19,888 nucleotides of DNA. It comes from an uncultured bacterium. Lineage in GTDB: Bacteria > Bdellovibrionota_C > UBA2361 > JANWWW01. Position 1 is the first letter of the stretch. Every line of letters starts with the position of its first letter. The notes under the pieces are model-generated. The model did no database searches. It was not told the origin of the DNA and was given only the letters and a program-made list of their open reading frames with translations. Of this stretch, positions 833 through 19,888 are shown piece after piece. A program made the translations under genes and the position numbers. Location: assembly GCA_938038205.1 (NCBI GenBank), contig CALHSA010000021.1:1-19888 (forward strand). The letters are read 5' to 3'.

Positions 833-2806
833 GTGTTCCACATAGGTAGAGCTTTTCAAACCCTAGGTGTAGTGATTATTCTTTATGGATTCATAGGAGG
901 GGGGCTTTTTTTTCCAGTTTTTAACTTAAACTTAACAAGCACATTTAGAGAAACTTTTCCATTAGGGGCCCTAATATTTTTACTTGGATTGGCAATATCG
1001 AAAAAAATTGTTTTTCATCAGGGGGTTGTATTATTTTCGCCTTTGATTTTAATACTCAGCAATCATCAATTTAGTGGTAAAACCTTTTTTGCTCATTATT
1101 TTTATATTGCTGAATTAGTTTTATTTATTTCTCTGTTAATGATTTGCAAACCTGATCTAAAAAAAGTTACTCCAGTGGTGCTTGTTATCGGCCTTATCGG
1201 AATTAGTTATAATTTTTTTTTCCTGCTTAAGGATACAATTATTTTCTCTGATGATCTCCCAAGTTTCTTATACAGAGCTATAATATTAAGGGAAGCGAAT
1301 CCTATTTTTCCATCGTGGGACCCATTCTGGAATGGGGGTACATTAACTACCGGTATTTATGCTTCAGCAGCCTTAACATTACTCCCATTCTCATCATTCA
1401 TTGATACATTTTTAAGCTTTAACACAATTGTGTGGTTTATAGTCGTAGTTTTGCCAATAGGTGTAAGTGTTGTTGCTCTTAGATTACTTGGGGTTTCTTC
1501 GGTTAGCTTTGGAATTATTTTGACCCTAGCTTCTTCAACTATTTACTACAGATGGGCGTTAAAGTACGGAACCCTTGGTTACGTCCTTTCCTCACATGCA
1601 ACTCTACTTGCTTTATTAGTTTTAACAAAAATAATATCCTCTGAGAATTCCGCTAAATATAAGGCTATTTTTAACGCTTTGGTGTTTGTTGCTGCTTTTT
1701 GGCCACTCAACCTTTTGAACTTGTTAATTCCGCTAATGTTCGGAATCCTAAATAGAAAAATTATTTTTAAAGATTTGACAATTCTATCAACTATTTTGTT
1801 AATCCCATTCGGTCTCACATTTTTTGGGTTATCCCACTCAGAAAAATTTTTAACCTGGTTGAGCTCACCTATTGACTCTGGTTTACCAACAGTTCCACAA
1901 AGCTTAAAAGAATTAACACGGGAAACCCTTCTCAATTTTAATCCGGTTATTACTTTTATCGGTATTTTTTCGTTAATCAAATCTAATATCTCATTACAGG
2001 TTTCTGCTTTAAATTATTTCCTTGTAACGTTTTTACTTGGGTTTTATTTTCCTAAGCTCGAGTTAGTTAGAGTATCAGGTCATTTTGCGATGTTCTTAGG
2101 TATTATTGTAGCTGCTAAATACACGAAATTTATAGAGCGTCTGAGAGGTGTCCCCAATTATTTTTTAATTTCTCTCGTGACTGTTGGAATTATCCAATCT
2201 GCAGGTATTTTTTCGAATCAAAGCTTTGAAAAGTTTGCGCTTCTGGAGAAGCCTTACAAAAGGTTTATTGACTGGGCAAAAAATCAATCCCACTGTAAAT
2301 TTATGTTTTTGGGTCACATTTTGCATAATTTTTCGGGTGGACATATTTATCCTTTGCCATTTTTTACAGGAAAGGAATTTTGGTCAGCTTACCCTTTTCA
2401 CTCATCTTGGAGACCACGTGAAATAGTGCCAGAAAGCGCAAAAACATCCAAGCTTGTTTTAGCTCAGTTTCTTGATTTTCTTGAGGTAAAGTACGTTATA
2501 ACTGATAGGAGATTTTGGAAGAGAAAGCTTTCGAGGAAATTTAAGAGAGTGTATCAGTTTGATAATTTTTCAGTATACTTAATTAAACCTCTCAACAAAA
2601 GAAAGTATGAACCCTCTTTAAACTCTATCCGGTTTCAGCTGGATTCTAACACTACGAATTTATTAATACCTTACATATACTCAAAAATCTTAAAGGTTAA
2701 AGGATGTGATGGTTTAAGTTTTAAAAATCTTTGGGGATATAATTTCATTGTTTTAAAAAACTGTCAGGCAGGAGAGGTGATCATTTTTAACAAATACCAT
2801 AAATGA
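833..2806 (+). CDS. Multi-spanning membrane protein, probable GT-C-type glycosyltransferase
   Basis: A 657-residue protein with about 10-12 hydrophobic segments over its first 460 residues and a mostly soluble C-terminal part. The first large extracytoplasmic loop, around residues 139-169, has FSDDLPSFLYRAIILREANP followed by WDPFWNGG. An acidic pair followed by a 'WDPYWNGG'-like segment is typical of GT-C polyprenol-phosphate-sugar transferases and of the related YfhO/PTPS-related membrane families. Asp140 and Asp141 are candidate catalytic or metal-binding residues. GTG at 833 is the first possible start after an in-frame stop. The gene overlaps the next by ATGA, so the two are probably made together. 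Role in envelope glycan or lipid modification is inferred; donor and acceptor are unknown. Confidence 0.62.
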   Translation: MFHIGRAFQTLGVVIILYGFIGGGLFFPVFNLNLTSTFRETFPLGALIFLLGLAISKKIVFHQGVVLFSPLILILSNHQFSGKTFFAHYFYIAELVLFISLLMICKPDLKKVTPVVLVIGLIGISYNFFFLLKDTIIFSDDLPSFLYRAIILREANPIFPSWDPFWNGGTLTTGIYASAALTLLPFSSFIDTFLSFNTIVWFIVVVLPIGVSVVALRLLGVSSVSFGIILTLASSTIYYRWALKYGTLGYVLSSHATLLALLVLTKIISSENSAKYKAIFNALVFVAAFWPLNLLNLLIPLMFGILNRKIIFKDLTILSTILLIPFGLTFFGLSHSEKFLTWLSSPIDSGLPTVPQSLKELTRETLLNFNPVITFIGIFSLIKSNISLQVSALNYFLVTFLLGFYFPKLELVRVSGHFAMFLGIIVAAKYTKFIERLRGVPNYFLISLVTVGIIQSAGIFSNQSFEKFALLEKPYKRFIDWAKNQSHCKFMFLGHILHNFSGGHIYPLPFFTGKEFWSAYPFHSSWRPREIVPESAKTSKLVLAQFLDFLEVKYVITDRRFWKRKLSRKFKRVYQFDNFSVYLIKPLNKRKYEPSLNSIRFQLDSNTTNLLIPYIYSKILKVKGCDGLSFKNLWGYNFIVLKNCQAGEVIIFNKYHK

Positions 2807-4179
2807 ATTTTTTCGAGTGGTTAAAAAACAAAGGATTCATCACCTCGATTGATATTTTTGGAATAGTTCCTCAAGTTTATATCTCTAATTATATTTTTGT
2901 AATTTTCATTCTAACGTTTTTATTCCTATCAATAGCTTATAAAAGTTTCGTTAAAAGTTTAACTTTTGCTTTTATATACACTCTAACTTTTGGAATCTCT
3001 ATCCCTACTTTAATGCTTGTATTAGCCTTTTTGATATTATGCTTTAACTCCCTTTTTTTGGGAGTTTTATCAATCCTAATGTCCTATGTGTTAATTGGAA
3101 GCGTCACTCCGATTCTGATTCTTTTCAAGTATGTTGCTTTAAAACCTAAAGGAGCAAACCTTGCTTTTAATTTTTTTGTTAGTATTTTTTTTATTTTTAT
3201 CTTCGAGGTTCTAGATATTCCCCAGATTCTGAAATTTAAAATCGCTGATACTTTTGTAACCAGACTTGATCCAAGCTTCTTACTGGGATCATTTCATTAT
3301 TCATTTCCTAGAGCTTTACTGGGCGAGAAATTAAGCAGTCTAGCTCTTTTTGGAATTGGAATAATTCTGTTGGATGATATTTTTAGGCTTAAGAATTTCA
3401 TATTTTTTATTTTTTCTATATACCTTTTTTTTAAGCCAAACCTTTACTTGATCTATCTTTGTTTTTTTCTAATACCTGTTCTTGAAGTAAATAAATCTAA
3501 GAAATTTTTATTATTTATGTTTTATTGCCTTTTGCCAGAAAAATTAGCTACAACGATTGAATCATACGCTAATATCTTGCCTCTCTCGGTTTTTGAACGT
3601 TTATTTGAGCCGTTAATTCCAGGGGTAATAATTTGTATAGTTCTTTTTTCGATTTTACTAACTATAAAAGAGGTATCAAATTTTAGTTTGATAATTTTAA
3701 CTGGAATTATGGCATTTTATATTCAATCCCCTTTTTTACTCCCAGAATATGAATTTTCCGTTATTGAAATTCAGGATATACCCTCTCAGGAACTACTTGA
3801 GAAAATTAAGAGAGTAACTGTTGGTAAAATCAAGCTAGATCAATTTTTTCTGGAAAGATTTAAAGATAAAAATGTTGAGATTTTTTACTCTGAAAGTAAG
3901 TGGACATCTTTTGAACTGCAGAAGCCCATTTTTTTTAACAAAATTAGACTGGAATGGGGTCATCAATTAAAGCATCCATTAAAGCTATTTTTAAGGTGCG
4001 GAGATAAAGATGTAACAATTAATTTTAGGGGTTTAGTTCAGGGTAGTACTAGGGTAGCTGCAAAAAATTTAACAGGCTTAACACTATCAATTAATAGTTG
4101 GTGTCAAGAAATTTTAGTATCAGATTGCTGTGAAAAATTTGAATTTCCGTTTGAAATATCTAACTTAAGATACGAATAG
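2803..4179 (+). CDS. Polytopic membrane protein of unknown function with soluble C-terminal domain
   Basis: A 458-residue protein with roughly ten very hydrophobic helices over residues 1-325, then a soluble region of about 130 residues rich in beta-prone sequence (EWGHQLKHPLKLFLRCGDKD and onward). That tail looks like a small beta-sandwich and would most simply sit on the outer face of the membrane. I recognise no family motif. The ATG overlaps the upstream stop codon (ATGA at 2803-2806) and the downstream gene begins two bases after the stop, so it belongs to a three-gene unit with the GT-C-like protein and the PHP-like protein. A strong Shine-Dalgarno-like GGAGAGGTGATC lies 20-odd bases before the ATG, too far for normal use. 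It could be a flippase, polymerase or second GT-C partner of its neighbour; nothing in the sequence decides this. Confidence 0.7.
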   Translation: MNFFEWLKNKGFITSIDIFGIVPQVYISNYIFVIFILTFLFLSIAYKSFVKSLTFAFIYTLTFGISIPTLMLVLAFLILCFNSLFLGVLSILMSYVLIGSVTPILILFKYVALKPKGANLAFNFFVSIFFIFIFEVLDIPQILKFKIADTFVTRLDPSFLLGSFHYSFPRALLGEKLSSLALFGIGIILLDDIFRLKNFIFFIFSIYLFFKPNLYLIYLCFFLIPVLEVNKSKKFLLFMFYCLLPEKLATTIESYANILPLSVFERLFEPLIPGVIICIVLFSILLTIKEVSNFSLIILTGIMAFYIQSPFLLPEYEFSVIEIQDIPSQELLEKIKRVTVGKIKLDQFFLERFKDKNVEIFYSESKWTSFELQKPIFFNKIRLEWGHQLKHPLKLFLRCGDKDVTINFRGLVQGSTRVAAKNLTGLTLSINSWCQEILVSDCCEKFEFPFEISNLRYE

Positions 4180-10320: not shown

Positions 10321-10349
10321 ATTGTAACCGACTAAAATTTCTGAGTGAA
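10321..10349 (-). promoter_or_regulatory. Predicted promoter of the CcmH-like gene
   Basis: On the minus strand TTCACT (10349-10344), a 17-base spacer and TACAAT (10326-10321) are in consensus arrangement, 22 bases before the ATG. The leader would be about 15 bases and would carry the AAAGG ribosome site. The -35 overlaps the GTG start codon of the divergent kinase gene, so the two genes may interfere with each other's expression. Confidence 0.5.
10333..10338 (+). promoter_or_regulatory. Predicted -10 element of the Ser/Thr kinase gene
   Basis: TAAAAT, preceded by C, ends 6 bases before the GTG at 10345, inside the divergent CcmH-like promoter spacer. No convincing -35. Same layout as at 5296-5301; predicts a leaderless mRNA. 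Confidence 0.42.
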
Positions 10350-12039
10350 TTCATCCAACTTGTTTGCTGATCGATACAAGTTCATTCAGAACCTTGGAAA
10401 AGGTGGAATGGGAGAGGTTTATCTCGTAGAGGATGTATTATTGTCCGAGTATGTGGCTCTAAAACTTATTAAAAAAGAGGCAACTTTGAACGCAAATTAC
10501 GTAGAGAAATTTATAAATGAAGTTAAACTCACAAGAAAAATATCCAATCCTTATGTTGTCAGAACCTTCGATCTTGGATGGTTTAATGGCGAGCTATATT
10601 ACACGATGGAATACGTTAGAGGGAATACCCTTAAAAGTTACCTATCGCAGACAAGGTCAATACCTTTCAATTTGGTGCTGAAATTTTTAATCCAGATCGC
10701 TGAGGGATTGTCCGCTATCCATAACGCGGGTATTGTTCACAGGGATCTTAAACCATCTAATATAATTCTGAATGAAAATCTTGATTGCAAAATAGCTGAT
10801 TTTGGAATTGCAAACCTTCTAACTGGTGATAAAAACATTGTTGATGGAAAAATTTATGGAAGTTTAGGTTATACAGCGCCTGAGATACTTAAAGGCGAAG
10901 CTCCTCATTTTCTCTCAGATATTTACTCTCTAGGAGTTATAGCGTATGAGTTATGCACTGGGGTTTGTCCATTTGACTCTGGTGATACTTCAATGGCTAT
11001 TACTCAGCATTTAAGTTATACTCCCCCCAGTTTAAAAAGCCTAAATGACAGTATACCACAAGAGTTCTCAGATCTGGTGCAAGCGATGTTAAGTAAAACG
11101 CCAGAGAATAGACCTAATACTGTTGATTCTATTCTTAGATCCTTGTTTGCTGTAAAAGATAAGCTTAAAAGTCAGAATTTTATTCTGCCCAATCTTGCAA
11201 AGCCAGGAGCAAGGAAAGGCAGTGTAAGGAGTAAGAGTGTAAGGGGTATATTTAGAGCAAAAAATCGTGTTGTTGAGAGTAAAAAAAATAAGCATGAGGA
11301 GAATTCTTCTAAAAACAAATCTGAGACCGGTTGGTTTTGGTTTTTGTTTTTTTACTCGCTGATAGCAGCTTTAATAGTTTTTACCTCACAAAGATATGAC
11401 TTTTTTAAGTTTCTTAATCATTCTTTTGCTTATCTGGCCGTTTTAATTATCCCATCTGTCATAATAAGAACATTGATTTTTGGATCAAAATCTTTCGTTA
11501 AAGAATTAATTAATACTTTAGCCATTTTTTACTTTTTAATTTTTCTTGCATTTTTATCTATTTATTATAATAAACAATTGAATACAGGCTTTTTAGTATC
11601 ACTTGACTACTTCTTAAAGGTTAAAGTAGCAGAGCTTGTACTTTTTGATCTGCAAGCTCGTCAATTCATTTTTGACCAGGCTTTCGGAATTATAACGTAT
11701 GTTGGAACCAGTAAGTTTTCCGTCGTTAATCTGGCGTGTATATACCTGTATTTATTGACTCTTTTTCGAGGAATGAAATTTATACCACTTCTCCTTACTA
11801 CCGTTAGCTTTTTAGCTTTATCTATAGCTTTGTGGTCCATTAAATATTTATTTGCTTCCTACGATAAACCATTATCTTTTGTCCCATGGTTAACTAATTT
11901 TTCGTTACTTAATGGAATTATTATTTGGCTAGGAATTTGTACTTTTACCTACAAGTTTAAGAGGGATTACTTTCTCTGCCACTTTGATCCCTATGATCGC
12001 TATAGTGTTTTTAACTTTACAAAATCCACCAAAGCTTGA
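10345..12039 (+). CDS. Hanks-type Ser/Thr protein kinase with polytopic membrane C-terminus
   Basis: A 564-residue kinase. Residues 11-275 form a full catalytic domain: glycine loop [12 protein letters not shown] (17-28), VALK with Lys40, Glu59 of helix C, HRDLKPSN with catalytic Asp134, DFG with Asp152, [11 protein letters not shown] of the activation segment, and [12 protein letters not shown]. All invariant residues are present, so it should be active. A basic linker (about 275-327) leads to about six hydrophobic helices over residues 328-540 instead of a single helix with PASTA or other sensor repeats. The kinase faces the cytoplasm and the membrane block may sense or anchor. GTG start at 10345 without Shine-Dalgarno. 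The final 111 bases overlap ygfZ on the other strand. Substrates unknown. Confidence 0.92.
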
Positions 12040-13313: not shown

Positions 13314-13815
13314 GAAAAACAATTCCAATAATCATATCCTCAAAAAAAAGGTTCATAAAGTTTGTTGGAATTCCTAGTGCTGAGGGTGCAGGTGAAAACG
13401 TAATATCTTTGAAATACAACTTAGTTTTTACAACTGGGCTTAAACACTTAATAGCAGCTTCTCTTAAAGTGAATTCTACTACAGGTTCCAAACCAGTTCG
13501 ACTATTATACCTAATCTGAGCTTTGTAACATTTTTTAACACTATCAATAAATTCAAGATCAATTCCGATAGCTTTAACATCCTTTGAGGCTACAACACCT
13601 AAAGTAAAATTATTTGAAGATCTTTTATGTGATAAAGATACAGCGGCGGTGTTGCTATTTGGATAAGGGAATCTAACAAAATTTGTATTTTTTCCTACAT
13701 AATTTCGCAAAAAATTTTCAATAATTGAGTTATCGTTTAGATCATTTTTAGTTAAATTCTTAAATATAGCTAAGGAAAATTTTTTCTTAAGTACAGAAAA
13801 ATTTACCACATCCAT
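13306..13815 (-). CDS. 4'-phosphopantetheinyl transferase
   Basis: A 169-residue protein with the core motifs of phosphopantetheinyl transferases: AVSLSHK with His63, AIGIDLEFID with Asp86 and Glu88 (magnesium binding), and FTLREAAIKCL with Glu119 and Lys123. It moves the phosphopantetheine arm from CoA to the serine of carrier proteins. At this length and with these spacings it is intermediate between the short AcpS type and the two-lobed Sfp type; the N-terminal half shows a shrunken, divergent first lobe. The only carrier protein in view is AcpP at 539-793. ATG at 13815 lies 39 bases from the divergent gene at 13855. Its stop overlaps the lepB start by 8 bases. A TTGACC lies upstream on the minus strand but lacks a matching -10. 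Confidence 0.8.
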   Translation of the reverse strand: MDVVNFSVLKKKFSLAIFKNLTKNDLNDNSIIENFLRNYVGKNTNFVRFPYPNSNTAAVSLSHKRSSNNFTLGVVASKDVKAIGIDLEFIDSVKKCYKAQIRYNSRTGLEPVVEFTLREAAIKCLSPVVKTKLYFKDITFSPAPSALGIPTNFMNLFFEDMIIGIVFHE

Positions 13816-13842
13816 GATGAAACTTTTGCCTCACTGGGTCAA

Positions 13843-13854: not shown

Positions 13855-14466
13855 ATGGAAAATCAAGAGGAAACAATAATAAGAATTAACGGCCAGGATT
13901 ATTTAGTTAATTTAAGCAACCTTAATAAACTAACGGAATTATTGGATTCACTGAGCCCGTATATTGATCCAGAGCATATGATCGTTGATATTACTTTTAA
14001 CGGAAATAATTTAGAGGAAACAGACTGGGACAGTTCAATAAAAAAGTTTTCTGGGGGTGTTTTTGAGATTAAGACAGATAGTCCTAAAAATTTTGCAATT
14101 TCTCGTCTAAAAGAATCGCCTTACATAGTAAACGCCATTTTGAAAATTATTAGGGAGGCCAGATTGTTATTTGCAGAGGGCAGAGTGAGAGAGGCTAACG
14201 ATATGATGGTTAAGGGGGTTAACGCTCTGAAGGAATTTTTTAATTGGTTTGGAGTCATATCTCGATTATTAGACCCTGAGATGGTGAAAATTTTTGACAT
14301 TAGCGAGGTTGTTGAAAATTTAGCTAATCAATGTGAAAAAGTCGCTAATGCGCAAATATATCAATCCTGGTGGGGTATCTCGGAGACCTTGAAAAATCAG
14401 GTTGAGCCTATTCTTGATGAGTTAGAAACTTTTCTACGAAAAACTTTAAGGAGCCAAGCACTATGA
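13855..14466 (+). CDS. Hypothetical protein with beta-rich N-terminus and helical C-terminus
   Basis: A 203-residue acidic soluble protein that I do not recognise. Residues 6-75 alternate short beta-type strands and a helix (TIIRINGQDYLV, LTELLDSL, HMIVDITFNGNNLE, GGVFEIKT), which looks like a small ubiquitin-like or beta-grasp fold. The remainder is helical: YIVNAILKIIREARLLFAEG, ANDMMVKGVNALKEFFNWFG, ISEVVENLANQCEKV, with an aromatic SWWG near residue 172. No signal peptide or membrane segment. It overlaps the next gene by ATGA and an AAGGAG ribosome site for that gene sits in its last codons. Its position at the head of a sigma-54/two-component operon suggests a partner of the 14463 protein. 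The helical part, with paired charged helices, could be a four-helix bundle chaperone-like domain; this is speculation. Confidence 0.78.
   Translation: MENQEETIIRINGQDYLVNLSNLNKLTELLDSLSPYIDPEHMIVDITFNGNNLEETDWDSSIKKFSGGVFEIKTDSPKNFAISRLKESPYIVNAILKIIREARLLFAEGRVREANDMMVKGVNALKEFFNWFGVISRLLDPEMVKIFDISEVVENLANQCEKVANAQIYQSWWGISETLKNQVEPILDELETFLRKTLRSQAL
14448..14453 (+). promoter_or_regulatory. Strong Shine-Dalgarno site for the 14463 gene
   Basis: AAGGAG lies 9 bases before the ATG at 14463. It is the only consensus ribosome binding site at usable distance that I find in the window, which suggests that this protein is made at a higher or separately set rate within the operon. Confidence 0.75.
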
Positions 14467-16421
14467 TTAACTTTTTATTATCTAAGCCAAATAAACTTGT
14501 TGAGCATTTTTTAGCACGTGTTTTCAAGGGATGTTCTTTTGACTCGAAAAAGATCGAATCAACTATTTTTGTTTTAACTGAATCTCATGAGATAAGTCCG
14601 CCTGATTTTGTTCCAGCTGGAGTGATTGATTGCCACTTAGGGGCACGATTAAGCGCAAACCCAGAGCTTTCTGAATGGTTCAACAAGTTTGATGGAAAGA
14701 AGATATCATTTAACCCAAATAGAAAAAACTTTCAGTTCAGAGATTTGAGATTGTTAAGTTTGCCAGAGACTTCTGAAGGCACCGATTCGTCCTCAAGAGG
14801 CACGTTGATAATCCTACCTGAAGCTGAATTTGATGAGGATCTGGTTGAAGCAATGAAGAATCATTGCCCTGATGTTTCAATAGTTGCTGCAGAGAGTATA
14901 GAATCTTTAGAGAGGTTATCAGAGTTAGTTTCAAAATACGCCACAATTGTAAACCCTACTCTTGAGGTAGATTTTCCATTAATTGAATTGCTAGCTTACC
15001 ACCACAGAAAAAGTATTATAACTACTCAGTATGGGTGTGTTTATGACTATTTAGGTAATCATGCATATTACTTTATCCCTGATAATCACAAAAGTTATGC
15101 AAGCTTGTTAAGAGTGGCAGGATTCCAACCGTCGGATCAAATTACTCTAGGTGGAGATTTATTTTCACAACTGCAGATGGATTTTGGTTATTTAAACTCT
15201 GAAGAAAGTGTTCTCGAGAAAGTTGAATTATTAATAGTGGAATCAAGATTAGATGAAGCTAAGTCACTCATAAAAAATGGGTTGGAGCAATTTAAGGACT
15301 CTGCTGTTTTAAGGCGAGCATATGGGATAATTTTAATGTCAGAGGGGTCTTTTGATGAGGCAAAAACCTGGCTATTAGAGAGTTACATATTAGATCCGAA
15401 TAATTCTAGAACCCTCTGTGCACTCGGTATGGTTTATGCAAACTCTGGGTTGGTTAACAAAGCTAAAGAGTTTTTGGTAAAAAGCTTTCATACTTCAGAT
15501 CAACCGTTGATTCCGTTGTTTAAATTAATCGAATTAGCTTACAGAGACTCAGATTTTTCCGAGGCGATCTCATGTTTGGAGGAGTATTTAGCAAAAACTA
15601 ATTTTGAGAATCTTGATTTAATTTTTACCCTAGCAGGTCTGCATTACAAGGCCCATAACTTCAAGGAGAGCTTAAAGCATTTAAATAGCGTTTTGGAAAG
15701 AAATCCAAATTACGAGGCAGCTGCACAGCTTAAGGAAATGGTTCTAGAGGCTATTAAAACTCAAGAGCCTTTATCGGAACCTGCCCAAGAGATTGTTGAG
15801 GAAATTCGAGTAACTGTTGAAAAAGATATCGAAGCGATTCTGAATAAAGTTGAGGCCTTAAAAAAATCTGGGGATTATCTCTCTGCATTTAAATTACTAT
15901 CCGATAATTACAACGAAGAACTTGATCCCGTACTACTTGAAAAAATGAGATTTTTGATGATGGAAATTAAAGTGTTAATGTGGGATCTTGATTTTTACAC
16001 TTCAAACTTTGAGTTTTTTGAACAGCAATATTCAAACCATCCAAGGTGGCTTAGTATTAAAGGTACTGTTGATTTAATCAATGGAAACCTTACCGAAGCA
16101 GAGAGGCACTTCAAAGAGGCTGTGGAATTAAATCCTAAAATGGATGTTCCTTGGGCAGGTTTAGCTCTGGTATCTGAGCTCAAAGAAGATTTTGAGACTG
16201 CTTACGAATACTATTTAAGAAGTCTAAAAATAAATCCATTAAATTTAAGAGCAGTTCTCGGCCTATCAGAAATATGTTTACGTAACAACAAGCCTCATGA
16301 GGCAATAGGGTGGGTCGAACGATTTATGAGTGAGTGCCCGGAGTGTGAGGAATTAAAAGAGGTTTACCAAAGACTACTCGCAGCTAAATCGGGTGAACTT
16401 GAGAATAACGTAGTTGGTTAG
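14463..16421 (+). CDS. Glycosyltransferase-like N-terminal domain fused to two TPR arrays
   Basis: A 652-residue soluble protein. Residues 100-240 read like the C-terminal half of a GT-B glycosyltransferase: GTLIILPEAEFDEDLVEAM, then LVSKYATIVNPTLEVDFPLIELLAYHHRKSII, the place where GT4 enzymes have 'PS..EGFGLP.lEAMA.G.PVI', followed by a nucleotide-loop-like stretch with DYLGNHAYYF. The usual Glu-x7-Glu is not preserved, so catalysis is doubtful. Residues about 255-430 and 530-635 form tetratricopeptide repeats (AYGIILMSEGSFDEAKTWL, LTEAERHFKEAVELNPKMD, ETAYEYYLRSLKINPLNLRA). An acidic linker with EEIRVTVEKDIEAILNKVEAL lies between. ATG overlaps the previous stop and has a strong ribosome site. 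TPR arrays bind partner proteins; TPR-glycosyltransferase fusions are known in flagellin glycosylation, but no such target is in view. Confidence 0.72.
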   Translation: MINFLLSKPNKLVEHFLARVFKGCSFDSKKIESTIFVLTESHEISPPDFVPAGVIDCHLGARLSANPELSEWFNKFDGKKISFNPNRKNFQFRDLRLLSLPETSEGTDSSSRGTLIILPEAEFDEDLVEAMKNHCPDVSIVAAESIESLERLSELVSKYATIVNPTLEVDFPLIELLAYHHRKSIITTQYGCVYDYLGNHAYYFIPDNHKSYASLLRVAGFQPSDQITLGGDLFSQLQMDFGYLNSEESVLEKVELLIVESRLDEAKSLIKNGLEQFKDSAVLRRAYGIILMSEGSFDEAKTWLLESYILDPNNSRTLCALGMVYANSGLVNKAKEFLVKSFHTSDQPLIPLFKLIELAYRDSDFSEAISCLEEYLAKTNFENLDLIFTLAGLHYKAHNFKESLKHLNSVLERNPNYEAAAQLKEMVLEAIKTQEPLSEPAQEIVEEIRVTVEKDIEAILNKVEALKKSGDYLSAFKLLSDNYNEELDPVLLEKMRFLMMEIKVLMWDLDFYTSNFEFFEQQYSNHPRWLSIKGTVDLINGNLTEAERHFKEAVELNPKMDVPWAGLALVSELKEDFETAYEYYLRSLKINPLNLRAVLGLSEICLRNNKPHEAIGWVERFMSECPECEELKEVYQRLLAAKSGELENNVVG

Positions 16422-16436
16422 AAGTTTCTATAAAAT

Positions 16437-17435
16437 ATGATTAGAAATTTTGCTGGTATAATTACTGCCTCATATAAATTAATTAAAGTTTGTGAACAGA
16501 TAGAGAAAGTTGCAACCACTGATGCAACGATTTTAGTCACTGGGGAGAGTGGAACTGGAAAAGAATTAGTTGCTAGGGCAATTCACAAATTATCAAAAAG
16601 GTCAGGTAATTTTATCAGTATAAATTGTGCAGCTATTCCAGATGATATTCTGGAATCGGAGTTATTTGGTTATGTTAAGGGAGCTTTTACCGGGGCTTTC
16701 AATTCTCGTGAGGGTAAGTTTCAAGCAGCGAATAAGGGAACGCTGTTTCTTGATGAAATTGGTGAGATGAGTTTGCGCTTACAAGCAAAATTATTACGAG
16801 TTATTCAAGAGAAAACAGTACAAAAATTAGGTAGCAATGTAGATGAACAAGTTGATGTCAGAATTGTAGCTGCAACAAATAAAAACCTTAGGGATGAGGT
16901 AGTAAAGGGCAACTTTAGAGAAGATTTACTTTACAGACTAGAGGTGGTTCATTTTGAACTACCACCTTTAAGAGAGAGAAAAGAGGATATATCTGTGCTT
17001 GCTCACCATTTCTTAGAAAAATTTAAATCCAAGTACTCCAAAAATATCTCAATGAGTCAATCTTTTATCGAGCCATTAAAAATGCATGAGTTTAGAGGAA
17101 ATGTACGAGAATTGCAGAATATCATTGAAAGGGCTGTCCTTCTGTGTGATAGCCCGGAGTTAACCTCAAAAGATTTACCTGCTTATGTTTTAAAAAATAT
17201 TGATGTAAAAGAGGAATATAAAACAGATGTTTGTGATAAGAAGGAGCTCCAGACATTTAATTTAGATTTTGATCGTATTAATTTAGTGGAGTTTTTAACC
17301 AATATTGAAAAAGAAATAATTTTGAGAGCACTTGAAAAAGCCGGGGGTAATAAAACTGTTGCCGCGGAAATGCTGAATGTTAACAGAACTACTTTGATTG
17401 AAAAAATAAAAAGATTATGCAAAGAAGCTGCTTAA
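16437..17435 (+). CDS. PspF-like sigma-54 transcriptional activator without receiver domain
   Basis: A 332-residue bacterial enhancer-binding protein. The AAA+ domain begins almost at once: Walker A GESGTGKE (36-43), the sigma-54 contact loop GAFTGA (82-87), Walker B GTLFLDE (101-107), sensor and arginine-finger region NFREDLLYRL, PPLRERKEDI, then GNVRELQN. A Fis-type helix-turn-helix ends the protein (GGNKTVAAEMLNVNRTTLIEKIKRL). It uses ATP to open sigma-54 promoters. With no N-terminal receiver, PAS or GAF domain it resembles PspF and must be controlled by partners or by its own level. It starts 15 bases after the TPR gene; the TATAAAAT directly before ATG is too close to be its promoter. 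The next ORF starts inside its last codons. Confidence 0.93.
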   Translation: MIRNFAGIITASYKLIKVCEQIEKVATTDATILVTGESGTGKELVARAIHKLSKRSGNFISINCAAIPDDILESELFGYVKGAFTGAFNSREGKFQAANKGTLFLDEIGEMSLRLQAKLLRVIQEKTVQKLGSNVDEQVDVRIVAATNKNLRDEVVKGNFREDLLYRLEVVHFELPPLRERKEDISVLAHHFLEKFKSKYSKNISMSQSFIEPLKMHEFRGNVRELQNIIERAVLLCDSPELTSKDLPAYVLKNIDVKEEYKTDVCDKKELQTFNLDFDRINLVEFLTNIEKEIILRALEKAGGNKTVAAEMLNVNRTTLIEKIKRLCKEAA

Positions 17436-18124
17436 CTGCGTTAATTTTGATTGCAATTGGATTAAATACAGAATCTTTGTTTGAAATATCACCAATGTCT
17501 ATGCAGAGTGCCATAGAAGTTATTAAAAATAAATCTGAGGATGATTTTAAAAACGCACTCGCTTATTTTAGTCTAGGTCTTGATGAAATTGCTTTTAAAT
17601 TATCAAAAGAATTATCTATTCGAAAAAATATAACACTAAACCAGAGGGTTCAGGCTCTAATGCTCAGTGGTATCACGGCTTATCGTTTGGCTAATTGGAC
17701 AGAGTGCGTAGATGCGCTTGAAAAACTTGAGTCTCTTAATGTTAAATCTCCCAGCTTACGGGATTTAAAAATTGTTTGTCAAATTAAGTCAGGAAATTCA
17801 AGCCAGGTTGAAATGCAATTAGAGGATGTAAATTCTCTTGATTTTAAACTTTTAGCCACTTTGCTTGAGTTGAGGATTAAGGAAAAAAACCATGAGGAGG
17901 CACTAAAACTTTTCAGAGCCCTACCTAATTCTTATAGAAACCTGTACCTTGGAGGGTTGTTAAAACTACTTCTTGAAAAAAAGGCATTCTTAGAGCTGGA
18001 GATGGTGGCTAACTTTTTCAACTTACAAAAATCGATTGGGATTGTAGTAAACATGATTGGCATCAACGTCGAGACTGATTTGGGTAAATTTAATGATCTT
18101 TTACAAAAACTAAATTTTTCATGA
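17417..18124 (+). CDS. TPR-like helical protein, possibly exported or membrane-anchored
   Basis: A 235-residue protein. The start (MQRSCLTALILIAIGL) is a short basic and hydrophobic segment that may be a signal peptide or anchor, though weak. The rest is helical with TPR-like spacing: ALAYFSLGLDEIAFKLSKEL, ALMLSGITAYRLANWTECVDALEKL, LLELRIKEKNHEEALKLFRALP. No catalytic motif. ATG at 17417 overlaps the activator gene by 19 bases and its stop overlaps the histidine kinase start by ATGA, so it is embedded in a regulatory operon. A protein-binding role toward the soluble kinase or toward the activator is a reasonable inference. The family is not recognised. Confidence 0.7.
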   Translation: MQRSCLTALILIAIGLNTESLFEISPMSMQSAIEVIKNKSEDDFKNALAYFSLGLDEIAFKLSKELSIRKNITLNQRVQALMLSGITAYRLANWTECVDALEKLESLNVKSPSLRDLKIVCQIKSGNSSQVEMQLEDVNSLDFKLLATLLELRIKEKNHEEALKLFRALPNSYRNLYLGGLLKLLLEKKAFLELEMVANFFNLQKSIGIVVNMIGINVETDLGKFNDLLQKLNFS

Positions 18125-18810
18125 GTCTGATTGAAAAATCTGACACCATATTAACAAAATCTGATAAAGGCATTGAGCCTTTTTTATCAGCTATATTAGC
18201 TCATGAAGTTCGAAATCCTCTTGGTTATATGAAACTGGCAGTATCTGGATTAAACTCTTTAGTTCAAGATCCAAGAGGCAAAACTTTTATCGATATTATT
18301 AGTAGGGGAATTGATCAGATTAATTCAACCATAGAGCAAGTTCTCTACTGCTCTGATTGTAAAAAATTAAATCTAAATTTAATTAACATTACGGATGAGG
18401 TAACAACGATAGTTGAGAATTTTAATAAAAAAAGTATACGACTAATAACTCCTACAATTTGCTATTGGTATTCAGATTGTGTAGCTTTTCGGCGATTGAT
18501 TACTAATTTAATTGAAAATGCTATAAAAGCTACAGAGAACATTCCGAATGATCCATTTATATTGGTAGAGGTTAAGAAGTTTGATGGAATTCTTTTAGTG
18601 AGGATACTCGATAATGGCGGAGGTTTCCCTGATGGTTTTAATGAAAAGTCTATTCAACCTGGTTTTTCTCTTTTTAAAAGAGGACTTGGTTTAGGGCTGT
18701 TTGTTTGTAAGCGTTTGGCCGAAAATTTGAATGCTCGGCTTATTATAAAAAACTCTGTTATAAATGGGCGTTTAGGAGCTCAAGTTAATCTAATTTTTAA
18801 ATCGGTATGA
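18121..18810 (+). CDS. Soluble histidine kinase of NtrB/FlrB type, lacking a sensor domain
   Basis: A 229-residue kinase made almost only of the catalytic core. H box AHEVRNPLG with phosphoacceptor His28, dimer helix around SRGIDQINSTIEQVL, N box NLIENAIKA, G1 box DNGGGFPDG, F box GFSLFKRG and G2 box GLGLGLFVCKRL are all present. No membrane segment, PAS or GAF domain precedes the H box; there are only about 20 residues. It should phosphorylate the response regulator that starts in its stop codon (ATGA, 18807-18810). The sensory input is absent from the chain and may come from a binding partner, for example the TPR-like protein encoded directly upstream. Five cysteines occur around YCSDCKK and YSDC, one CxxC-like pair, of unknown meaning. 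Confidence 0.92.
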   Translation: MSLIEKSDTILTKSDKGIEPFLSAILAHEVRNPLGYMKLAVSGLNSLVQDPRGKTFIDIISRGIDQINSTIEQVLYCSDCKKLNLNLINITDEVTTIVENFNKKSIRLITPTICYWYSDCVAFRRLITNLIENAIKATENIPNDPFILVEVKKFDGILLVRILDNGGGFPDGFNEKSIQPGFSLFKRGLGLGLFVCKRLAENLNARLIIKNSVINGRLGAQVNLIFKSV

Positions 18811-19888
18811 GTAAGATTCTAATTGTTGAGGATGATCTTAATTTTAGGAAAACCCTGGTGATGTTTTTGAGTGAAAATTATGATCTAGTAGAGGCAGAAA
18901 ATGGAGCAGAGGCATTAAAAATATTAGAGAATGAAAAAGATATAGATTTAATAATATCAGATCAGATAATGGAACCCATTAATGGGTGTGATTTACTAAA
19001 AAATATTAGACAGAGAGGTCTTAATACCTCTTTTATCCTAATAACTGCTTACGGATCGGTACAAACTGCTGTTGAAGCGATGAAGCTTGGAGCTAATGAT
19101 TTTATTCAAAAGCCATTCTCTCTGTCTGATATTAAGAGAGCGATTGAGAGAGTTCTTGAGGTAAGAGAGGATAAAGGATTAAGTCTTCTCGATATAAAAC
19201 TACCGATTGTTACAAAACATCCTAAAATGATTACATTACTAAAAATATGCGAAATTATAGCAAGAAGCGATTGTACTGTTTTAATTGAAGGTGAGTCTGG
19301 AGTTGGGAAAGAAGTCATCGCTAGAGCAATACATTCTATGAGTCCGAGACGCAATGGTCCGTGTATAGTTATTAATTGTGGAGCGATTCCAGATCATCTA
19401 CTTGAGTCTGAGCTTTTTGGTTTTGAAAAGGGTTCGTTTACTGGTGCGGATAGGAGAAAGCTTGGCAAGATTGAATTAGCTCATAATGGAACTTTAGTGC
19501 TCGATGAGGTGTCTGAGCTGCCTTTAAACCTTCAAGTTAAGCTTCTCCGGGTTTTACAAGATAGAAAAGTTGAAAGATTAGGAAGCACCGAATCTCAAGA
19601 GATAAATTTCAGATTAATAGCCATATCAAACAAAAGCTTACTTAAATGTTGCAATGAAGGAAAATTCCGATTTGATTTATACTACAGACTTAATGTAATG
19701 CCGTTATTCGTTCCTCCTCTCAGGGAGAGGAAAGAAGATATACCTTTATTGGCTAATTATTTCTTAAAGAAATTTTGCCCAAAATTTTCGACGCTTCCGG
19801 CAAACATTTGTGAGAAACTTATGGAGTATGATTGGCCAGGTAATGTTCGTGAGCTTCAAAACGCTTGTGAAAGAGTAGCAGTCCTTTC
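18807..19888 (+). CDS. NtrC-family response regulator, 3'-truncated by the window edge
   Basis: An open frame from ATG 18807 runs off the window end (360 residues seen). The receiver has the acidic pair Asp9-Asp10, phosphoacceptor Asp52 (ISDQIMEPING), Thr80 and Lys102 (FIQKPF). The AAA+ domain follows: Walker A GESGVGKE (162-169), sigma-54 loop GSFTGA (209-214; Ala to Ser at the second position), Walker B GTLVLDE, FRFDLYYRLNV, PPLRERKEDIPLL and GNVRELQN. The DNA-binding end is outside the window. Phosphorylated members activate sigma-54 promoters. It overlaps the upstream histidine kinase by ATGA, forming a cognate pair, the second sigma-54 activator within one operon. Confidence 0.93.
   Translation, partial: MSKILIVEDDLNFRKTLVMFLSENYDLVEAENGAEALKILENEKDIDLIISDQIMEPINGCDLLKNIRQRGLNTSFILITAYGSVQTAVEAMKLGANDFIQKPFSLSDIKRAIERVLEVREDKGLSLLDIKLPIVTKHPKMITLLKICEIIARSDCTVLIEGESGVGKEVIARAIHSMSPRRNGPCIVINCGAIPDHLLESELFGFEKGSFTGADRRKLGKIELAHNGTLVLDEVSELPLNLQVKLLRVLQDRKVERLGSTESQEINFRLIAISNKSLLKCCNEGKFRFDLYYRLNVMPLFVPPLRERKEDIPLLANYFLKKFCPKFSTLPANICEKLMEYDWPGNVRELQNACERVAVL

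Follow-up and report, generated by a model that had tools for sequence, protein, structure and literature searches.

Several described systems resemble the locus considered here. The flagellar hierarchy of Vibrio has flrA alone in class I, with flrBC in class II (PMC6504787). FlgS, FlrB and FleS, which are cytoplasmic kinases, require the MS ring, the rotor and the export gate; as to what such soluble kinases sense, the authors allow for an unidentified factor, and Campylobacter has no master activator (PMC7064773). GmaR is a flagellin glycosyltransferase with tetratricopeptide repeats (TPRs) that doubles as an antirepressor (PMC9638930). Our locus lies at the 3' end of the window, a stretch of 19,888 nucleotides that is the entire contig C21 of G000, a draft metagenome-assembled genome (MAG; 1.22 Mb, 46 contigs, 81% complete). 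The source organism is an uncultured relative of predatory bacteria, and the records of several members of its uncultured class are MAGs labelled Deltaproteobacteria, Bdellovibrionales or Oligoflexia; the class could correspond to UBA2361 of "Bdellovibrionota_B" (PMC13200544). Genomes of this class (n=45) were examined, among them G001 (SKYG31), which is the sister genome, and G003 (UBA2409), a more distant relative. The locus consists of six genes on the forward strand, and genes 3-6 are probably the flagellar sigma-54 control operon of the class. The function, control of flagellar genes, is ordinary; the class-wide arrangement is unusual. What is new is a class-wide gene for a predicted exported TPR protein, a sigma-54-driven master operon, a flagellin-linked family represented by gene 1, and the apparent loss of a glycosyltransferase (GT) domain in gene 2. 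The case is built on features observed directly: which genes are present and how they are conserved, their linkage to flagellar genes, the sigma-54 sites, the N-termini resembling export signals, and a kinase without a membrane segment.

Gene 3 (16437..17435, 332 aa) encodes a sigma-54 activator with an AAA+ domain containing the GAFTGA motif and a helix-turn-helix (HTH) domain of the Fis type. The Pfam AAA+ match starts at residue 8, and Pfam finds neither a receiver nor a FleQ domain in this protein. An earlier note on this DNA had called it PspF-like and receiver-less; the domain composition bears this out, but the score with the curated PspF model is below the cut-off (260.9 vs 443.55 bits). 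Gene 4 (17417..18124, 235 aa) encodes a TPR alpha-solenoid with a predicted N-terminal hydrophobic export signal. Gene 5 (18121..18810, 229 aa) encodes a soluble histidine kinase with HisKA and HATPase_c domains, and gene 6 (18807..19886, at least 360 aa) a response regulator of the NtrC type with a receiver and a sigma-54 AAA+ domain, both as had been proposed. Since the window is a complete contig of a draft genome, gene 6 is cut at its 3' end and remains open; its C-terminal HTH would fall past the contig end, and the full-length protein is available in G001. The sigma-54 contact loop of gene 6 reads GSFTGA in the window and GAFTGA in the orthologues from G001 and G003. The six open reading frames (ORFs) and their junctions, overlaps of 4, 19, 4 and 4 bases and a single 15-base gap, are exactly as originally reported.

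The block of genes 3-6 (activator, TPR protein, kinase, regulator) is present in all 33 class loci examined. The activator is followed by the gene 4 orthologue in 33 of 33 cases (G000, G001, G003 and 30 further loci), and the kinase and the regulator come after gene 4 wherever the contig runs on, with one or two annotation gaps. Orthologues of gene 3 are set apart by score (at least 417 bits, the next match having 375) and occur in 34 class genomes, namely 34 of the 41 that carry flagellin and none of the four that do not. In several families, although not in G001, the genes flgB-flgC-fliE-fliF lie directly 3' of the block; FliE, FliF and the FlgC rod domain were assigned by Pfam, and the remainder by sequence. 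In one family a transglycosylase gene (G040 L149:5071-5814) is situated between the regulator and flgB. G000 itself carries flagellins, fliM/N/P/Q (named by eye from sequence), flhB, flhA, flhG and a FliA-like sigma factor, and to judge from these genes the organism is flagellated. Thus, both the conserved neighbourhood and the adjacent flagellar genes that the earlier note had suggested looking for were found, the complete six-gene order recurring in G001 and G003. Its parallel with FlrABC and FleQSR also holds, given the linked basal-body genes, the co-occurrence with flagellin and the sigma-54 sites upstream of flgK and flagellin.

Candidate sigma-54 sites with the pattern TGGYAY-N5-TTGC precede gene 3 in 24 of 29 loci, compared with 3 of 174 control regions (relaxed score). 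Another four sites are situated above start calls that had been over-extended, so that 28 of 29 loci in all have the site; in G003 it is retained as TGGTAGGGGAATTGCA. Under the strict pattern, G000 contains 10 sites, versus 2 for the reversed control. Of these, one is 23 bp upstream of flgK; a flagellin gene has the variant site TGGTCTAAACTTTGCT 37 bp ahead of it. In G001, flgK and flagellin are preceded by sites at distances of 25 and 26 bp, respectively. Sites of the kind that the earlier note had suggested looking for are seen both upstream of the activator and upstream of flagellar genes. A scan with a strict weight matrix gave no sites in G000, and scanning single regions for GG-N10-GC gave results barely above chance, so that only the cross-locus comparison is informative. 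In G003, the genome-wide count is too high owing to a repeated element beside small four-helix-bundle-like genes (L202, L206, L214, L235), and the sites at these loci were discarded as promoters and ascribed to the repeat; G000 has one repeated site (L208, L212). Because of these repeats, genome-wide counts carry no weight in the argument. Several sigma-54-like sites of the G003 repeat occur in facing pairs about 184 bp apart, beside one small-gene family (MKNFRTY...). The rpoN gene (PF04552) was found in 39 of the 43 genera searched, and in G001.

The majority of the class has a single sigma-54 promoter ahead of the entire activator-TPR-kinase-regulator operon, and a two-step cascade of the Vibrio type, as originally suggested, does not agree with this. 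The wiring differs from that of Vibrio, since there flrA is in class I and flrBC in class II (PMC6504787), whereas here the activator operon itself is mostly preceded by a sigma-54 promoter.

Gene 1 (13855..14466, 203 aa) belongs to an unnamed family; it matches no family in Pfam or NCBIfam. Its relatives were found with an alignment-based search, a single-sequence scan of contigs having produced no matches. It is present in 40 of 45 class genomes: 40 of the 41 with flagellin and none of the four without. The AlphaFold2 model (pLDDT 93) has an N-terminal beta-grasp (approximately residues 6-75), in agreement with the initial guess, followed by a four-helix bundle (77-202). Fold searches returned mainly designed bundles and sensor domains. 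The bundle can be superimposed on FliS (1orj; Z 10.4, rmsd 2.9 over 107 residues), but not better than on unrelated bundles, and there is no Pfam FliS match. As the bundle resembles many unrelated ones, FliS included, the fold gives no function. Gene 2 (14463..16421, 652 aa) encodes a TPR protein. The GT domain of Pfam was undetected in gene 2 of the window and of G001, whereas the TPRs are retained; it is present in the homologues from G003 and G026. Alignment of the N-terminus with an intact GT by hhalign gave a probability of 31% over 42 residues. Because of this segment, its position and the missing Pfam match, the N-terminus looks like a decayed group-1 glycosyltransferase. Of the initial description of gene 2 as a glycosyltransferase-like TPR protein, the repeats stand, and the GT domain is not detected by Pfam in the window protein.

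The six genes are probably a fusion of two flagellar loci, genes 1 and 2 being the tail of a flagellin-glycosylation locus. In most of the class, gene 1 stands behind the genes c1 (methyltransferase/glycosyltransferase) and c2 (GT9), often after fliS and fliD; a large GT/TPR gene is often the next after gene 1, and the control block is elsewhere. Genes 1 and 2 head the control block only in the family of the window (G000, G001) and in G003, and in these three genomes the pair c1-c2 persists, gene 1 no longer standing behind it. The order in G001 has the identical 19-base overlap of genes 3 and 4; G003 has an additional short ORF call ahead of gene 3. In the gene 3 tree, the branch of G000 and G001 is long and close to the outgroup, with G003 placed elsewhere, so that the joined arrangement may have arisen once or twice. 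The leading pair had been noticed as foreign to the FlrABC scheme, and indeed it derives from a separate flagellar glycosylation locus.

What the junction means for regulation is another matter. Genes 1 and 2 may stand beside the control operon by chance, being co-expressed with it and playing no part in regulation; such a reading is consistent with the fusion of two loci, and we give it slightly less than an even chance. In its favour, the two genes reside with fliD and fliS in the glycosylation locus of most class members, a long way from the control block, and c1-c2 were left behind in all three genomes. On the other hand, the junction is retained in two genera of the window's family and in G003, and the overlaps within the family are tight. 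One possibility is that the gene 2 protein modulates the activator or the kinase from within the cytoplasm in a GmaR-like manner, coupling flagellin glycosylation to gene control. It is co-transcribed immediately ahead of the activator in G000 and G001, and it has kept its TPRs without a detected GT domain; GmaR is a precedent for a GT/TPR protein that is also an antirepressor (PMC9638930). However, the GT domain is intact at the equivalent position in G003, the adjacency to the activator is confined to three genomes, and binding to the activator or the kinase is conjecture, which makes this unlikely. Slightly less likely again is a more elaborate arrangement, in which the catalytically dead GT/TPR protein of gene 2 and the product of gene 1 would have been recruited to report the status of flagellin or its glycosylation to the gene 3 activator, with the secreted TPR protein reporting from the periplasm.

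The TPR protein encoded by gene 4 was the core of the earlier note's model, in which it was a cytoplasmic adaptor passing a signal to a sensorless kinase in a two-step sigma-54 cascade. The invariable position of gene 4 between the activator and the kinase and the lack of a sensory domain in the kinase are in favour of this model, and FlrB and FleS may sense via an unidentified factor (PMC7064773). However, a hydrophobic export-signal-like N-terminus is seen in all 33 gene 4 orthologues sampled within the class, the share among control proteins free of internal transmembrane segments being 12%, and an A-x-A motif precedes the likely mature start in 18 of 33 orthologues versus 26 of 304 controls. 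At the same time, no transmembrane segments were found in gene 5 or the orthologous kinases, and gene 5 has no PAS domain; many kinases of the class have a helical N-terminus that appears coiled-coil-like by eye. Since the TPR protein carries an export-like signal and the kinases lack membrane segments, a direct contact between them in the cytoplasm is unlikely, and we regard the adaptor as very doubtful. The remainder of gene 4 was modelled as a TPR-like solenoid, and fold searches returned general TPR proteins, with no functional hint. Together with a weak Pfam TPR match this upholds the TPR-like nature of the protein, as distinct from the adaptor role, and its product is more likely a flagellar part or an assembly factor. 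It is highly improbable that the operon chiefly controls type IV pili or secretion. A sigma-54 site lies directly before a type IV pilin gene of G000 (contig C2, L188:1501-1944), and such sites precede pilin-like genes in G003; these are outweighed by the linkage to fliE and fliF, the co-occurrence with flagellin and the sites before flgK and flagellin.

The fusion of two flagellar loci, with the working scheme that follows, seems to us the probable explanation as a whole. The activator encoded by gene 3, always competent, would switch on early flagellar genes through sigma-54 and also, in the majority of class members, the operon to which it belongs; we infer these targets from the absence of a receiver and the promoter ahead of gene 3. 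Once the inner-membrane ring, the rotor and the export gate are assembled, the kinase (gene 5) would phosphorylate the regulator (gene 6), and the latter would then act at late sigma-54 promoters, such as those of flgK and flagellin. By analogy with FlgS, FlrB and FleS (PMC7064773), the cue for the kinase is probably that the MS ring, rotor and export gate are in place. The gene 4 protein would be transported to the periplasm, most likely as a part of the flagellar assembly or motor scaffold, made together with its regulators. The products of gene 1 and of the decayed GT/TPR gene 2 may handle flagellin in the cytoplasm, as a chaperone or a glycosylation scaffold. In this scheme the signal of the kinase, autoregulation, the promoters served by each activator and the roles of genes 1, 2 and 4 are inferred.

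Several observations weigh against this scheme. The link between the gene 5 kinase and rotor assembly is by analogy with FlgS, FlrB and FleS. G000 and G001 have lost the sigma-54 promoter ahead of gene 3. They share 13 bases, TGAAACTTTTGCC, 40 bp before gene 1 (in G001, TAGTGAAACTTTTGCC); in the window this candidate promoter element, TGATGAAACTTTTGCC, occupies positions 13815..13830 of the forward strand and is known from only two genomes. It has a -12-like TTGCC and no -24 GG, and its identity as a promoter is uncertain. Of the five loci tested, only two show a plausible sigma-54 site at a flgB-like gene. In the window itself, gene 4 has a less canonical export signal than its orthologues elsewhere in the class, with no clear AxA site. 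Finally, rpoN was not found in the 81%-complete assembly of G000, so that the presence of this gene, sought at the suggestion of the earlier note, is confirmed for most genera and not for the source genome. The rpoN gene of G001 is flanked by lptB and hpf-dcd (named by eye), and in G000 neither dcd nor an lptB orthologue was found either, the best lptB match having 31% identity. Since the neighbours are missing as well, an assembly gap is likely; it is the simplest reading, which this suggests and does not prove.

Other genes of the window and of G000 may be mentioned. A Ser/Thr protein kinase with a long membrane-like C-terminal part is encoded at 10345-12039 of the window and also neighbours the operon in G001. 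Positions 833-4179 code for two large membrane-like proteins that match nothing in Pfam. A lytic transglycosylase gene (L172:10665-11525) adjoins the flagellins of G000. A second gene of the FHIPEP family lies away from the flagellar genes on contig C2 (L174:8130-9998), next to a gene for a long protein weakly similar to the window's protein kinase. At least two FHIPEP genes are present in most genomes of the class, a hint of another type III export system.

Among the known systems, FlrABC and FleQSR share the sigma-54 activator adjoining a soluble kinase and a regulator of the NtrC type, the proximity to flagellar genes, and the sigma-54 sites ahead of flgK and flagellin. Unlike FlrA and FleQ, the gene 3 protein lacks the FleQ-type N-terminal (receiver-like) domain; a gene for a predicted exported TPR protein is inserted between the activator and the kinase, the kinase has no PAS domain, and the activator operon, unlike Vibrio flrA, mostly has its own sigma-54 promoter. 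The FlgS-FlgR pair of Campylobacter likewise combines a cytoplasmic kinase without PAS and a sigma-54 regulator, but the class considered here has a master activator and the TPR gene between it and the kinase. Gene 3 resembles PspF in being reduced to AAA+ and HTH domains without a receiver, and differs in the flagellar context, the absence of a PspA partner from the operon and a score far under the family cut-off. Gene 2 shares with Listeria GmaR the glycosyltransferase-like N-terminus, the TPRs and the flagellar setting; in the window it is without a detected GT domain, and no antirepressor domain was identified in it. PflA, the periplasmic TPR motor scaffold of Campylobacter and Helicobacter, is like gene 4 a TPR protein tied to flagella and exported, as is predicted for gene 4. 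However, gene 4 is encoded within a regulator operon and is presumably shorter than PflA, and the likeness is one of description.

To these systems the class adds an unnamed, well-conserved family (gene 1) that tracks flagellin and travels with flagellin-glycosylation genes. The gene for a putatively secreted TPR protein, always situated between the activator and the kinase, is a natural candidate part in the question of what such kinases sense. Finally, the class offers a different wiring of the flagellar hierarchy, in which the master operon itself is mostly sigma-54-driven, from one promoter.

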